From: Ramlibacter lithotrophicus
GTDB taxonomy: Bacteria; Pseudomonadota; Gammaproteobacteria; Burkholderiales; Burkholderiaceae_C
DNA: 64,000 nt
Assembly: GCF_012184415.1 (NCBI RefSeq)
Contig: NZ_VTOX01000002.1
Coordinates: forward strand, 248,001-312,000
Direction of reading: 5' to 3'
Shown: positions 3,065 through 44,058 of the stretch, one piece after another
How positions within the stretch are numbered: the stretch's first letter is position 1
How the letters are laid out: each line of letters begins with the position of its first letter
The notes under the pieces: model-generated
Told to the model about the DNA's origin: nothing
The model's database searches: none
The model's input: the letters and a program-made list of their open reading frames with translations, nothing else
Made by a program: the position numbers and the translations under genes

Positions 3065-4090
3065 ATGAACAAGCTTTCGATTCTTGCAGCGGCCGCACTG
3101 GCGGCCATGTTGGGCAGCGCGCCGGCCGGCGCCCAGACGGTGCTCACCGCATCGTCCTGGGTTCCGCCCAATCACCCGCTCACCGCGAATGGACTGGTCG
3201 CCTGGACCAGGGAGGTGGAACAGGCGACGCAGGGCCGCGTCAAGTTCAACGTGCTGCCCAAGGCGCCGGTGGCGCCGCCGCAGACCTTCGACGCCGTGAA
3301 GGACGGCGTCGTCGACGTCTCGTTCACGGTGCACGGCTACACCCCGGGCCGCTTCGTGCTCACCAAGATGACCGAATTCGGCTTCCTCGGCGATTCGGCC
3401 GAGGCGATCTCGGTCGCCTACCAGCGCATGCACGACCGCCACCTGGCCAAGGTCGGCGAGCACAAGGGCGTCAAGGTGATCGGCGTGTTCTCGCATGGGC
3501 CGGGCCAGATCTACACCGTCAAGACGCCGGTCACCACGGTGGCCGACCTGCAGAACATGAAGGTGCGCGTGGGCGGCGGCATCGTCAACGACTACACCCG
3601 CGCGCTGGGCGGCAGCCCGCTGCTCAAGCCATCGAGCGAATCGTTCCAGATGCTGCAGAGCGGCGTCGCCGACGGCATCTTCTTCCCCAACGAGTCGATC
3701 ACCGGCTTCAAGCTCACCAGCCTGATCAGGCACGGCACCCTGGTGCCTGGCGGCCTGTACAACACCAGTTTCGTCATGATGATGAACGAGGCGAAGTACA
3801 ACGCCTTGCCCAAGGCCGACCGCGACGCGATCGACAAGGTCTCCGGCGAACACTTCGCGCGGCTCGCCGGCCGGATGTGGGATGCGGCCGACGCGGCGGG
3901 CCTCAAGGAGATCAAGGCGGCCGGCATCGACGTGCGCACCGCCAGCCCCGCCTTCGTCGCCGAAGCCAAGGCCAAGGTCGATCCGATCGAGCAGGCCTGG
4001 TACAACGAAGTGAAGGCCAAGGGGCTCGACGGCGCGGCGCTGATGCGCGAGTTCCGGGCCGAGATCGCCAAAGTGGCGGCCGGGCGCTAG
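3065..4090 (+). CDS. dctP: TRAP transporter solute-binding protein (DctP family)
   Basis: 341 residues with a clear Sec signal peptide, MNKLSILAAAALAAMLGSAP followed by an AGA cleavage site, so it is periplasmic. The body has DctP family features: TREVEQATQGRVKFNVLP near the N terminus, a central RVGGG segment where an arginine usually binds the substrate carboxylate, and a C-terminal helical EIAKVAAGR tail. A purine-rich ribosome site, acaggaga, sits 5-12 bases upstream of the ATG. Only 3 bases separate it from the small permease gene. The ligand is not predictable; family members mostly bind organic acids, which suits an operon of CoA-ester and 2-oxo-acid enzymes. Confidence 0.92.
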   Translation: MNKLSILAAAALAAMLGSAPAGAQTVLTASSWVPPNHPLTANGLVAWTREVEQATQGRVKFNVLPKAPVAPPQTFDAVKDGVVDVSFTVHGYTPGRFVLTKMTEFGFLGDSAEAISVAYQRMHDRHLAKVGEHKGVKVIGVFSHGPGQIYTVKTPVTTVADLQNMKVRVGGGIVNDYTRALGGSPLLKPSSESFQMLQSGVADGIFFPNESITGFKLTSLIRHGTLVPGGLYNTSFVMMMNEAKYNALPKADRDAIDKVSGEHFARLAGRMWDAADAAGLKEIKAAGIDVRTASPAFVAEAKAKVDPIEQAWYNEVKAKGLDGAALMREFRAEIAKVAAGR

Positions 4091-4633: not shown

Positions 4634-5922
4634 ACGAAGCGCTGATTGCCTTCGCCGCGATGCTGGTGCTCGCCTTCGCGCGGGTGCCGATCGCGTTCGC
4701 GATGGGGCTGGTCGGCTTCGCCGGGTTTGCCTTCAAGACCAGCGTGCCGGCGGCGCTGGCGATGACGGGGGCCGTGACCTACGAGACGGGCCTGTCGTAC
4801 GCGCTGTCGATCGTGCCGCTGTTCGTGCTGATGGGCAACCTGGTCACGCGCGCCGGCCTCTCCGAGGAACTGTACAAGGCGTCGCATGCGTTCCTCGGGC
4901 ACCGGCGCGGCGGCCTGGCCATGGCCACCATCGTCGCGTGCGGCGGCTTTTCCGCGATTTCCGGCTCCTCGGTCGCGACCGCCGCCACGATGGCGAAGGT
5001 GGCCGTGCCGCCGATGCAGCGCTTCGGCTACTCCGACGCGCTCGCGTCCGGTTCGGTGGCCGCCGGCGGGACGCTGGGGATCCTGATCCCGCCGTCGGTG
5101 GTGATGGTCATCTACGGCATCCTCACGCAGCAGAACATCGGCAAGCTGTTCATCGCCGGCATCCTGCCCGGGCTGCTCGCGATCGGCTGCTACCTCGGCG
5201 CCATCATGGTGACGGTGCATTTCGACCCGGCATCGGGCCCACCCGGGCGGCGGCTGCCGATGCTGGAGCGGCTGCGCACGCTCAAGGGCGTGTGGGGCGT
5301 GCTGCTGCTGTTCGGCGTGGTGCTGGGCGGCATCTACGGCGGCGTCTTCACACCGACGGAAGCGGCGGGCATAGGCGCCGCCGGCGGCTTCGTGTTCGCG
5401 ATCTGGCGCCGCGGCTGGGACCGCGCGATGCTGCGCGAGGTGCTGGTGGAGAGCGCGGCGACCACCGGGATGATGTTCACCATCCTGATCGGCGCCCTGA
5501 TCTTCGCCAACTTCGTCAACCTGACGACCATGCCGGGCGAGCTGATCGCGCTCACCGACCGCTTCACGGCCACCCCGCTGCTGGTGATCTTCGCGATCTG
5601 CTTCATCTACGTGCTGCTCGGCTGCGTGCTGGAGAGCATGTCGATGATCCTGCTGACGGTGCCGATGTTCTTCCCGGTGGTGCAGCACCTGGGCTTCGAC
5701 CTGATCTGGTTCGGGATCATCGTGGTGGTCGTGACCGAGATCAGCCTGATCACGCCGCCCGTCGGCCTCAACGTGTTCGTGCTGCGCAGCGTGCTGCCCG
5801 ACATTCCCACGGCGACGGTGTTCCGCGGCGTCATGCCGTTCGTCGCCGCCGACGTGGTGCGGCTGGGGTTGCTGGTGGTGTTTCCCGTGATTTCGCTGTA
5901 CCTCACGCAGTTCGTGCGGTAG
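4630..5922 (+). CDS. dctM: TRAP transporter large permease (DctM family)
   Basis: 430 residues, start fixed by the ATGA overlap with the small permease. A strongly hydrophobic protein with about 12 membrane segments. Family landmarks include RVPIAFAMGLVGF near the N terminus, GGFSAISGSSVATAATMAKV, the GGTLGILIPPSVVMVIYGI loop and the C-terminal TEISLITPPVGLNVFVL, the last two lining the substrate path in TRAP structures. It performs sodium-driven uptake of the ligand delivered by the DctP protein at 3065-4090. The oxidoreductase gene starts 8 bases after its stop. Confidence 0.93.
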   Translation: MNEALIAFAAMLVLAFARVPIAFAMGLVGFAGFAFKTSVPAALAMTGAVTYETGLSYALSIVPLFVLMGNLVTRAGLSEELYKASHAFLGHRRGGLAMATIVACGGFSAISGSSVATAATMAKVAVPPMQRFGYSDALASGSVAAGGTLGILIPPSVVMVIYGILTQQNIGKLFIAGILPGLLAIGCYLGAIMVTVHFDPASGPPGRRLPMLERLRTLKGVWGVLLLFGVVLGGIYGGVFTPTEAAGIGAAGGFVFAIWRRGWDRAMLREVLVESAATTGMMFTILIGALIFANFVNLTTMPGELIALTDRFTATPLLVIFAICFIYVLLGCVLESMSMILLTVPMFFPVVQHLGFDLIWFGIIVVVVTEISLITPPVGLNVFVLRSVLPDIPTATVFRGVMPFVAADVVRLGLLVVFPVISLYLTQFVR

Positions 5923-22217: not shown

Positions 22218-25200
22218 TCATTGCGCCGACTCCCGAAGCGCCGGCCGCCGCCCCCAGCGCCGGCCCAGGCGATCGAAGGCCAGGTAGATCACCGGCGTCG
22301 TGAACAGCGTCAGCAACTGGCTCAGCACCAGCCCGCCGAAGATCGCGATGCCCAGCGGCCGCCGCAGTTCGGCGCCCTCGCCCCAGCCCAGCATCAGCGG
22401 CACGGCCGCAAACAGGGCCGCCAGCGTCGTCATCAGGATCGGCCGGAACCGCAGCAGCGCCGCCTGGCGGATCGCCTCCAGCGGCGACTTGCCTTCATGC
22501 CGCTCGGCGTCGATCGCGAAGTCGATCATCATGATCGCGTTCTTCTTCACGATGCCGATCAGCAGGATGATGCCGATGATCCCGATCACGCCCAGGTCGT
22601 TGCCGGTCAGCCAGAGCGCCAGCAGCGCGCCCACGCCCGCCGACGGCAGCGTCGACAGGATCGTGAGCGGGTGGACATAGCTCTCGTACAGCACGCCCAG
22701 CACGATGTAGACGCAGACCACGGCGGCCAGGATCAGCCACAGCTGGTTGGTGAGCGATGCCTCGTACGCGCCCGCTGCGCCCAGGAACGTCATCGAAACC
22801 GCCGCCGGCAAGGCCACGTCCTGCGCAGCGTCGCGGATTGCATCCACCGCCGCCCCCAGCGAGGAGCCCGGCGCGGTGTCGAACCCGATGGTGGTCGCCG
22901 GGTACTGCGCCACGTGCGTGATCTGCAGCGGCGCGCGCCGTTCGGTGATGGTGGCCACCGCCGACAGCGGCGTCGGCTCGCCGGAGGCGGTGCGCAGTTG
23001 CACCAGGCCCAGGCTGGCGGGGCTGGCCGCGGCGTCGGGCCGCGCCTCCAGGATCACGCGGTACTGGTTGGTCTCGGTGAAGATCGTCGAGACGATGCGC
23101 TGGCCGAACGCGCTGTACAGGGCCTCGTCGATCGCGGCGGCCGAGATGCCCAGGCGCGCCGCCGTGTCGCGGTCGATCTGCACCGACACCGCGGCTCCGG
23201 CGGCCTGCGCGTCGGTCTGGACGTTTCGCAGTTGCCGCACCCCCTGCAGCCGCTGCGCGAGCTTGCCCGCCCACTCGGCGACGACGGCGGTGTCGGCGCC
23301 TTCCAGCGAGACACGGTATTGCGTAGGGCCGCCCTCGGCGTCGATGGTGAGGTCCTGCGTCGGTTGCAGGTACAGCGCGACGCCGGCCACCTGCTGCGCC
23401 CGCCGGCGCAGGCGGTCCATCAGCGCCTGCTGCTCGTCGTGGCCCGGCTTCAGGTTGATCAGCATGCGCCCCGTGTGCAGCATGGTGTTGTTGGCCGCGT
23501 CGACGCCGACGAAGCTGGCGATGGTGGCCACATCCGGGTCTTCCATCAGCCGCTGCGCAACTTCCCGCTGCAACGCGGCCATGCGGGGGTAGGACACCGA
23601 CTGCGGCGCCTCGACCCGCGCCTGCAGCTGGCCGGTGGACTGGGTCGGGAACAGTCCTTTCGGGATCCACATGTACAGCAGCACGGTGAGCCACAAGGTG
23701 CCCAGCGCCACCAGCAGCGTGAGGCCCTGGCGCGCCAGCACCCAGCCGAGCCAGCGGTCGTAGCCGGCGATCAGGCGATCGAACCGGCGCTGCATCCGGC
23801 CGCCCCAGCCGCTCTCGCCGCCCGGGCGCGCGGTGAGCCAGCGGGCCGACATCATCGGCACCAGCGTCAGCGACACCACCGCGGAAATCAGGATCGTGAT
23901 CGCCAGCGTCACCGCGAACTCGCGGAACAGCCGCCCCACCACGTCGCCCATGAACAGCAGCGGGATCAGCACCGCCACCAGCGACACCGTCAGCGAGATG
24001 ATGGTGAAGCCGATCTCGGAGGCGCCTTTCATGGCCGCGTGCAACGCGAGGGAGATATTCTGGCTCCGGCCGGACGCTGGCGCGTCCTTCACTTCGCCTT
24101 CGGCGAAATGAGCCTGCGCCGAAACATTTCTCGCCATCTCGACGCCGGAGATGTTTTGGCTCCGGCCGGACGCTGGCGCGTCCTTCACTTCGCCTTCGGC
24201 GAAATGAGCCTGCGCCGAAACATTTCTCGCCATCTCGAGATGGCGAGAAATGTTTTCGATCATCACGATGGCGTCGTCGACGACGAACCCGGTCGCGATC
24301 GTCAGTGCCATCAGGCTCAGGTTGTTCAGGCTGTAGCCGAGCAGGTACATCACCCCCAGCGTGCCAACCAGCGAGATCGGCACCGCCAGGCTCGCGATCA
24401 GCGTCGCCCGCGGGCTGTGCAGGAAGGCGAAGATCACCAGCACCACCAGGACCACCGCCAGCACCAGTTCCAGCTGCACGTGGTGCACCGACGCCCGGAT
24501 GCCGGTGGTGCGGTCGCTCAGGACGTCGACGTTCACGGCCGCCGGCAGGCCGGCGGTGAGCTCCGGCAGCCGGGCCTTGATCGCGTCCACGGTGGCAATC
24601 ACGTTGGCGCCCGGCTGGCGCTGCACGTTGAGGATCACCGCCGGCTTCAGGCGCCCGTCCACCGCCGCCCAGGCACCGAGCTTGACGTTCTCAGCGCTCT
24701 GCACCGCCCGCGCGATGTGGGACAGCCGCACGGGGGCGCCGTTGCGCCAGGCGACGATCAGCTCCTGGTAGTCCTGCGCCGCCACCAGCTGGTCGTTGGC
24801 GTCGATCGTGTAGGCCCGCGTGGGCCCGTCGATGCTGCCCTTGGCGCCATTCGCGTTGGCCGCGCTGATCGCCGTGCGCACGTTGTCCAGCGTCAGGCCG
24901 TACGACGCCAGCGCGCGCGTGTCGACCTGGATCCGCACCGCGGGCCGCTGGCCGCCCGACAGCGTGACCAGCCCGACGCCGCCCACCTGGCTGATCTTGA
25001 GCGCGAGCCGGGTGTTGGCGATGTTCTGCACCTCGGTCAGCGGCAGCGAGTCGGAGGTGAGCGCGAGGCTCAGCACCGGCGCGTCGGCCGGATTCACCTT
25101 GGCATAGACAGGCGGCGCGGGCAGGTCCGCCGGCAGCAGCGAGCCGCCGGCGTTGATCGCGGCCTGCACCTGCTGCTCCGCGACGTCCAGGCCCAGGCCC

Positions 25201-25490
25201 AGCGCGAACTGCAGCGTGACGATAGCCACGCCGGCGGCGCTGGTCGAACTCATGCGCGCGAGGCCGGGCATCTCGCCGAACTGGCGCTCCAGCGGCGCGG
25301 TGACGGTCTGCGCCATCACCTCCGGACTGGCGCCGGGGTACAGCGTCTGCACCTGGATGGTCGGGTAGTCGACCTGCGGCAACGCCGACAGCGGCAGGAA
25401 GCGCCACGCGACCAGGCCGGCCAGCACGATCGCCAGCATCAGCAGCGAGGTGGCGACGGGCCGCAGGATGAAGGGGCGCGAAGGACTCAT
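22218..25490 (-). CDS. mdtB: RND multidrug efflux transporter subunit, MdtB-like, with in-frame tandem insertion
   Basis: 1090 residues from [19 protein letters not shown], against about 1040 for E. coli MdtB. RND features: [15 protein letters not shown] with the proton-relay Asp pair, [36 protein letters not shown], and [14 protein letters not shown] before TM2. The extra length comes from a 32-residue unit, starting [16 protein letters not shown] and ending [11 protein letters not shown], at residues 420-451 and repeated at 452-480. It sits in the cytoplasmic loop right after the TM4 motif ENISRHLE. The frame is kept and the rest is intact, so the pump may still assemble. It lies between the membrane-fusion gene (16 bp upstream) and the MdtC-like gene. 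Confidence 0.93.
24051..24255. repeat. Tandem 96-bp palindromic element inside the mdtB-like gene
   Basis: Two copies with a 96-bp period; 24061-24142 and 24157-24238 are identical over 82 bp. At the gene-proximal end, aaacatttctcgccatctc (24218-24236) is followed at once by its exact reverse complement (24237-24255), a 38-bp perfect palindrome. Each unit also holds a small hairpin ttcgcc-ttc-ggcgaa. Because 96 is a multiple of three and the unit has no stop in this frame, the reading frame of the pump survives. Confidence 0.9.
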
Positions 25491-43996: not shown

Positions 43997-44058
43997 CGGA
44001 AGCGCGGAAGCGCGGAAGCGCGGCAGTGCGGCAGTGCGGCAGTGCGGCAGTGCGGCGG
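43997..44058. repeat. Short tandem repeat of 8-mers GCGGAAGC / GCGGCAGT
   Basis: About three units of an 8-base repeat reading ggaagcgc, followed directly by four units of cggcagtg, end just before the stop of the crotonase gene. Both unit types differ by only a few bases, so one probably gave rise to the other by slippage. It lies in a 275-bp gap (43788-44062) that otherwise shows nothing recognisable. Confidence 0.8.

Follow-up and report, generated by a model that had tools for sequence, protein, structure and literature searches.

A structured, probably host-copying repeat of Betaproteobacteria stands in tandem inside an RND efflux pump gene of Ramlibacter lithotrophicus

The question raised by this locus is what the repeat is that stands twice, in frame, inside an RND efflux pump gene of Ramlibacter lithotrophicus, and how it came to be there. 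The window, which is the whole 64,000-nucleotide stretch of DNA that was analysed, contains the complete pump gene, and a profile search matched its product to ACR_tran with 1020.9 bits over nearly the full length (Table 1). The repeat consists of two tandem 96-bp units at 24051-24238, which are 98% alike across 92 aligned nucleotides and for which TRF gave a score of 362 and 2.0 copies, while the inverted copy is completed by positions 24239-24255. Both units are free of stop codons in the minus-strand coding frame of the pump, each of them reads as 29 protein letters and then (GVE), and the first one begins at pump residue 420. These data agree with the original prediction, which had described two in-frame units of this size starting at that residue; the number of units is as assembled and may include an assembly error. 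The folding energy of the insert strand was -65.2 kcal/mol, compared to a mean of -36.9 kcal/mol for dinucleotide shuffles (z -7.0), which bears out the earlier description of the units as hairpin-rich.

The pump was then compared with its orthologues. The stretch that begins with DDAI and ends just before GFT, which spans the loop between TM4 and TM5 that we take to be cytoplasmic, has 31 residues in 17 of 17 Ramlibacter orthologues (L151-L166, L173), while it has 89 residues in the pump of the window, a net gain of 58. Hence, the observation of additional sequence holds, and a native loop is excluded by the 17 orthologues without the insert; the stretch is an insertion, as had been proposed.

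The unit did not prove to be the single self-contained palindrome for which it had been taken. It is composed of a structured core of 61 nt and of about 35 nt derived from the pump gene, in the form of direct and inverted copies. In the order of the coding strand, the site ATGATCGA|AAACATTTCTCGCCATCTC, which contains the first host copy (D), is followed by the inverted copy I, the core, a remnant of a further direct copy (D'), six bases, and then by a second I, a second core and the last D' remnant. The sequence of I, GAGATGGCGAGAAATGTTT, is a perfect inverted copy of D. The dispersed, recurring part of the 96-bp unit is the core.

Table 1. Positions in the window of the pump gene and of the parts of its insertion; the bar marks the cut
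Feature	Position	Strand	Evidence
RND efflux pump gene (AcrB/AcrD/AcrF family, MdtB-like), carrier of the insertion	22218..25490	-	frame open throughout; 17 orthologues of the genus without insert
Target site GA|AAAC with D, the first host copy (GA + AAACATTTCTCGCCATCTC, in codons ENISRHLE)	24237..24257	-	sequence; perfect inverted pair with I; most residues common to orthologues
I, 19-nt inverted copy of D, adjoining core 1	24218..24236	-	inverted repeat, 100% over 19 nt
Core 1, 61 nt, three-way-junction element	24157..24217	-	model R1, 77.2 bits, match 24153-24221 including arms; the sequence is a member of the training set of R1
D' remnant AAACATCTCC, 3' of core 1	24147..24156	-	sequence, comparison with D
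Second I, 19 nt, adjoining core 2	24122..24140	-	inverted-repeat comparison
Core 2, 61 nt	24061..24121	-	model R1, 73.4 bits, match 24057-24125 including arms
Last D' remnant GAATATCTCC, then the 16-residue native continuation minus about seven codons	24051..24060	-	sequence, orthologue comparison

The core is present in this genome in seven copies at four loci, which are the pump (two copies), the 3' end of cysH (one copy, in frame), the intergenic region between recA and recX (one copy), and the region behind metK (three copies). At each of the four loci the end of the neighbouring gene is repeated. The recA tail NKVRESLGIPLLPAEA flanks the core on both sides, the metK tail TDKAAALRAAAGLK recurs, with changes, after two of the three cores, and KECGLHVK is present on either side of the core in cysH. 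Inspection by eye showed recA without the core in twelve relatives, and no metK array in the 11 relatives that were readable past the metK end, of 12 fetched. A stretch behind metK in L196, which is without a match to model R1, resembles a decayed copy of the core. In L094, an SAH riboswitch (5074-5153, minus strand, 58.7 bits) is separated by about 60 nt from a copy of the core, which itself follows a metK-like tail. The window also contains, at 43997-44056, a tandem array of 8-bp units of the GCGGCAGT type (6.6 copies), which is unrelated to the element. The search of the genome and its relatives thus found the expected recurrence in other genes, with the core in or beside cysH, recA and metK here and in many other genomes. 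This result also bears on the reading of the two units as an assembly artefact or as a plain tandem duplication of a native loop, which could draw on the 98% likeness of the units. We give this reading next to no credence, because 17 orthologues are without such a loop and because the same core is found at three other loci here and in many independent assemblies; for the element itself it is refuted.

To understand what is conserved in the core, its copies, which are about 50-62 nt long, were aligned and compared for pairing. The core is a conserved, covarying three-way junction, with helices formed by the host-derived arms, by RGC/GCY, by GGC/GCC, and by P2 and P3. The outer part and P2 were recovered by RNAalifold, while the full structure, in which 91.1% of cells are paired, was supplied by hand. 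The number of cells changed on both sides was 109, compared to a shuffle mean of 34 (none of 500 shuffles reached 109) and to at most 23 with slid partners, and the covariation score was 0.360 versus 0.118. The difference was smaller by a weaker measure, the number of pairs changed on both sides (15 versus 11.5, reached in 5 of 500 shuffles), and by a weak control, the number of further pair types (34 versus 30.0, reached in 47 of 500 shuffles). The inner part of P3 was paired in just 72% of cells, which is partly an effect of the alignment. The 32 distinct P2 hairpins contained 249 Watson-Crick, 12 G-T, 1 A-C and 8 other pairs, and the 12 G-T pairs against a single A-C pair indicate that the functional, folding strand is the written strand, although many of the G-T pairs share one position and may represent few events. 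In alignment A1, the letters of P2 and P3 vary among the copies of one genome, yet the pairing stays good, pointing to copies that are old and under selection, or else to palindromes that are often corrected. A search of Rfam with window positions 23900-24400 and with ten loci (E up to 1 and 0.1) gave no gathering-score match over the element, and a curated Rfam RNA was dropped as its identity for this reason.

The distribution of the core was determined using a covariance model built from 34 cores, in a genome scan that scored at most 13 candidates per genome, and using pattern searches. The core was found in 118 of 399 genomes of the order Burkholderiales (E up to 1e-4), and in three of 370 genomes of the class at 1e-5, which were this genome, one genome of the same family, and one with a weak match at a contig end. 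An exact-pattern search matched 14 of 299 genomes of the family, this genome included, of which at least one (G301) is chance-like, and another search matched three of 60 genomes, with the match in G047 chance-like. Among the matches listed, the core-bearing records include Ramlibacter, Curvibacter, Pigmentiphaga, Dechloromonas, Thiobacillus, Hydrogenophilus and Gallionellaceae, while several of the listed exact-pattern matches in distant phyla are chance-like and were kept out of the flank sets. A well-formed core was also seen on a MAG contig labelled Klebsiella pneumoniae (L133, about position 3274), perhaps through contamination of the MAG or through transfer beyond Betaproteobacteria. Plasmid and phage collections gave no match to one 66-nt query; this search was weak because the hairpin letters vary between copies, so that absence from plasmids and phages is not established by it. 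The core pattern was matched by 31 stretches of IMG/VR viral contigs (L303-L333), which could be prophage flanks or true phage copies.

The arrangement seen in the pump recurs elsewhere. Many insertions have the layout D-I-core-D' at a GA|MAAN site, in either orientation to the genes. In this layout the host stretch that begins at the site is present twice, as D and as D', and I, which ends at the core, is reverse-complementary to the first part of D. The frequency of this layout was measured in an unselected set consisting of all listed core matches minus 14 rows for duplicate places, which gave 108 arrays or single copies, and 107 after one with a short flank was dropped. With thresholds of at least 9 for the score of I, adjoining the core, and at least 18 for the score of D', after the core, I was present in 56 of the 107, D' in 61, either in 78, and both in 39. 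In 33 of the 39 cases with both, the two defined the same site to within 1 nt. In a cross-pair control (n = 2646), scores at the level of I arose in 0.6% and at the level of D' in 0.8%. Neither copy was detected in 29 of the 107, and 13 of these 29 lie inside another repeat (L213, L249-L257, L259, L260); those outside other repeats include an in-frame copy in another RND pump (L217), in which I and D' are both below threshold. The cores in L249-L257, L259 and L260 (G396, G492) and in L213 (G388) stand inside a repeat of about 200 bp, the ends of which are like AGGCCGTTGAAAAACG in G396, at GCGA|AAACG, and they seem to have multiplied along with that repeat. About 1.7 Mb of sequence contained four examples of a minimal hairpin, CGGC-NNN-GCCA, with the same arms, and all four are next to a full copy within another repeat.

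In the unselected set the cut was preceded by GA in 66 and by CA in eight of 78 cases, while the sites known from D' alone were less clean (GA in 12 and CA in six of 22). The cut is followed by A or C, and then by A and A; since the arms help to locate the site, its right side is biased, while GA is unbiased. The site was located 26-46 nt upstream of the core in 15 of 78 cases, 55-106 nt in 60, and further away in three, and the duplications reach 40-90 nt. The lengths obtained for I, 9-38 nt, are too high wherever D and I make up a single palindrome, as in the window, where the script gave 34 nt and the inverted-repeat comparison 19 nt. A hand-listed set of 70 matches, picked before flank scoring, contained I in 39 and D' in 38 cases. 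The figures on gene ends, phase and background rest on a chosen set of 77, made up of 52 of these 70 (18 were dropped after the flanks had been seen) and 25 more, and its own counts (I in 51, D' in 57, either in 70 of 77, agreement in 32 of 38) are flattered by the selection. In the chosen set MAA was preceded by GA at 46 of 52 sites, compared to a background of 8.1%. The reading frames in this set were picked by length, and the pick was wrong for some, including L275 and L138, which are antisense genes, and the window, which was placed on the wrong strand.

The genes that have been struck suggest how such insertions could be tolerated. Those struck near the 3' end include, by the names of their profiles, ornithine carbamoyltransferase, FtsW, AccB, GlmS, DnaJ, SmpB, MetK, AcsA, CcmE, PstB, SerS, FolE2 and DnaB; NuoD, RuvC and a thiolase were struck at the 5' end, in antisense, CysH near its end, and Mpl inside the gene. 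The genes named are representatives, and some of the profile matches are partial and below the curated cut-off. Several of the struck genes recur, by eye, at the same place in more than one family. Of the 52 sense cases in the chosen set, 40 have the stop codon between the site and the core, so that the left copy of D keeps the gene whole; for comparison, among the GAMAA sites in long reading frames of these loci, 60 of 466 are within 90 nt of a stop. In one case (L268, 721-807) a tRNA-Leu(CAA) gene is cut in the anticodon at the site CA|AAAT and is followed by two cores, each of them with copies of the tRNA 3' portion before and after it, and the gene stays whole because this portion is duplicated. 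As judged from these sequences, the duplication can preserve genes that are struck near their end, such as metK, recA, ftsW, glmS, smpB and tRNA-Leu.

A smaller group of copies is read as protein. The phase GA|A AAN was found in 41 of 52 sense-frame sites of the chosen set, which is partly explained by the fact that sites are commonest in this phase (260 of 466), and in the GAA-AAC frame the core is free of stops and reads x-SAQA...VK...GRSQ-N or close to it. In-frame copies in conserved proteins were found in the pump of the window, L271, L217, Mpl (L243), L109, and the C terminus of CysH. The protein of L271, from Casimicrobiaceae, is an RND pump with CusA/CzcA as its best profile (partial and under the cut-off), and it carries three 99-bp units at the same E-N pair. 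The site preference, together with a tolerant loop, would account for RND pumps of three families having been struck at the same codon pair. The likeness to Rickettsia palindromic elements that had been suggested for the pump thus stands as regards in-frame entry, while in its place inside proteins it fits fewer of the sense cases than lie at gene ends.

The positions of the copies also bear on whether the core could be retained at gene ends for a regulatory role, as a functional RNA or a terminator, the duplicated ends being a by-product of local rearrangement. Such a role would fit a covarying structure with one preferred strand and the many copies directly after stop codons, and a BRE, a repeat to which we return below, lies in a transcribed sRNA region of Bordetella (PMC3110155). 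On the other hand, antisense copies over the starts of nuoD, ruvC and the thiolase gene, copies in frame inside proteins and in a tRNA, and the patchy occurrence in 118 of 399 genomes all speak against it. The antisense copies weaken a terminator function in particular, and we regard this explanation as improbable.

Overall, the data are best explained by a non-autonomous mobile element of Betaproteobacterial chromosomes, which is probably the correct reading. The core, as compared across diverged species, very likely belongs to a mobile family that copies its target. An ordinary MITE, moved by a DNA transposase that makes unusually long and variable target duplications, with I arising later by correction of an imperfect palindrome, is a less likely source of the same features. 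It would account for a small element that is non-coding alone and has a closing inverted repeat and duplications, for the presence of I in just 56 of 107 cases, and for tandem arrays and near-perfect hairpins, which fit ongoing palindrome correction; variable duplications of 3-26 bp are known for YPAL (PMC2229807). However, later correction does not predict that I and D' have a common first base in 33 of 39 cases, nor that I adjoins the core, the duplications of up to 40-90 nt are long and variable, and a local search revealed no parent transposon with these ends among the loci examined. We consider a MITE of this kind unlikely. A convincing autonomous longer form, with the halves of the core far apart, was also not found among the loci examined.

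To look for a mover, genomes rich in copies (five or more) were compared with genomes free of them. RVT_1 was found in 10 of 20 copy-rich and in seven of 20 copy-free genomes, and Y1_Tnp in 14 of 20 of each, so neither was associated with the element, and a Y1 or RVT_1 enzyme was dropped as its mover. Four of the 10 copy-rich genomes without RVT_1 are listed as 100% complete. A reverse transcriptase may since have been lost, or may be unlike RVT_1.

For the mobile element, the layout allows a tentative, and rather doubtful, order of steps by fold-back. The site would be nicked, and the core would be joined to, or copied onto, the right-hand side of the nick. The closing stem (RGC/GCY) would then fold back, and the new 3' end, now on the host strand, would copy that strand outward from the site, giving rise to I, after which synthesis would switch to the left-hand side, where D is still present, so that D would be duplicated. 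Such a scheme would account for the two limits of I, which are the core and the site, and for the pairing between the ends of the core. The survivors would be those insertions in which the left D restores the end or the start of a gene, or in which the core is in frame at GAA-AAC in a tolerant loop, as in the pump of the window, while tandem units, 96 bp long here, would be made later by unequal recombination or slippage. It is conceivable, at somewhat less than an even chance, that a small structured nucleic acid caps one side of a GA|MAAN break as a hairpin tip, primes copying of the host strand from its closing stem and is sealed by a strand switch, which would be a new mode of insertion.

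The element as such had been expected, if it occurred in other genes, to represent a new family, which it probably does not. Hot et al. (2011) named a repeat of about 90 bp, with partial forms of 40-60 bp, the BRE, in Bordetella, Polaromonas, Delftia and others (PMC3110155). The available parts of that report describe it as chromosomal, present in tandem arrays of varying copy number, and suspected to be mobile, as overlapping the 5' or 3' ends of genes, with some copies 'entirely within coding sequences', and as a repeat that 'needs further investigation' (PMC3110155). The core family likely is the BRE, from the comparison with the published description rather than of letters, as both share the Betaproteobacterial hosts, the tandem arrays, and the copies at gene ends and within coding sequences. 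The parts of the BRE text that were available give no target site, host-sequence copies, fold, peptide or mechanism, unlike the data presented here (PMC3110155), and no description of the target site, the host-sequence copies, the fold or the peptide was found in the open-licence library that was searched.

Other families of small repeats resemble the core in part. The RPE of Rickettsia and the WPE of Wolbachia are likewise palindromic and enter conserved genes in frame, and RPE are also found in RNA genes (PMC2229807, PMC10969869, PMC3733652). The RPE differ in their length of 105-150 bp, in their Alphaproteobacterial hosts, and in a target duplication that is listed as '?', and the likeness is one of behaviour; the available parts of these sources describe no gene-end copying for them, unlike the core family (PMC2229807, PMC10969869, PMC3733652). 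The REP elements, which are linked to RAYT transposases, are short hairpin repeats, some of them in reading frames (PMC3733652). They are tagged with GTAG or CGTC at one end (PMC3733652), while the core ends differently, with host copies, and shows no association with Y1_Tnp. YPAL/RU-2 is small, palindromic, not A+T-rich and has variable target duplications, but it is 168 bp long, its duplications measure 3-26 bp, and it occurs in Yersinia and Erwinia (PMC2229807). What was described here is probably the repeat of 2011, and its unusual layout may point to a new way of insertion.

For a repeat that was probably named in 2011 and left unexplained, a structure is now available, together with its target site and with an insertion signature that can be tested. 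Besides Rickettsia and Wolbachia, there is now a second bacterial setting where conserved proteins gain peptides from palindromic elements. Entry into dense genomes would be explained by the D-I-core-D' layout, since the duplication repairs the struck gene. If the new insertion mode is true, each insertion brings with it its target in a direct and an inverted copy, spares genes near their ends, and seeds new segments of proteins. For genome annotation, the duplicated tails and odd loops in metK, cysH, recA, glmS, ftsW and others may share one cause.
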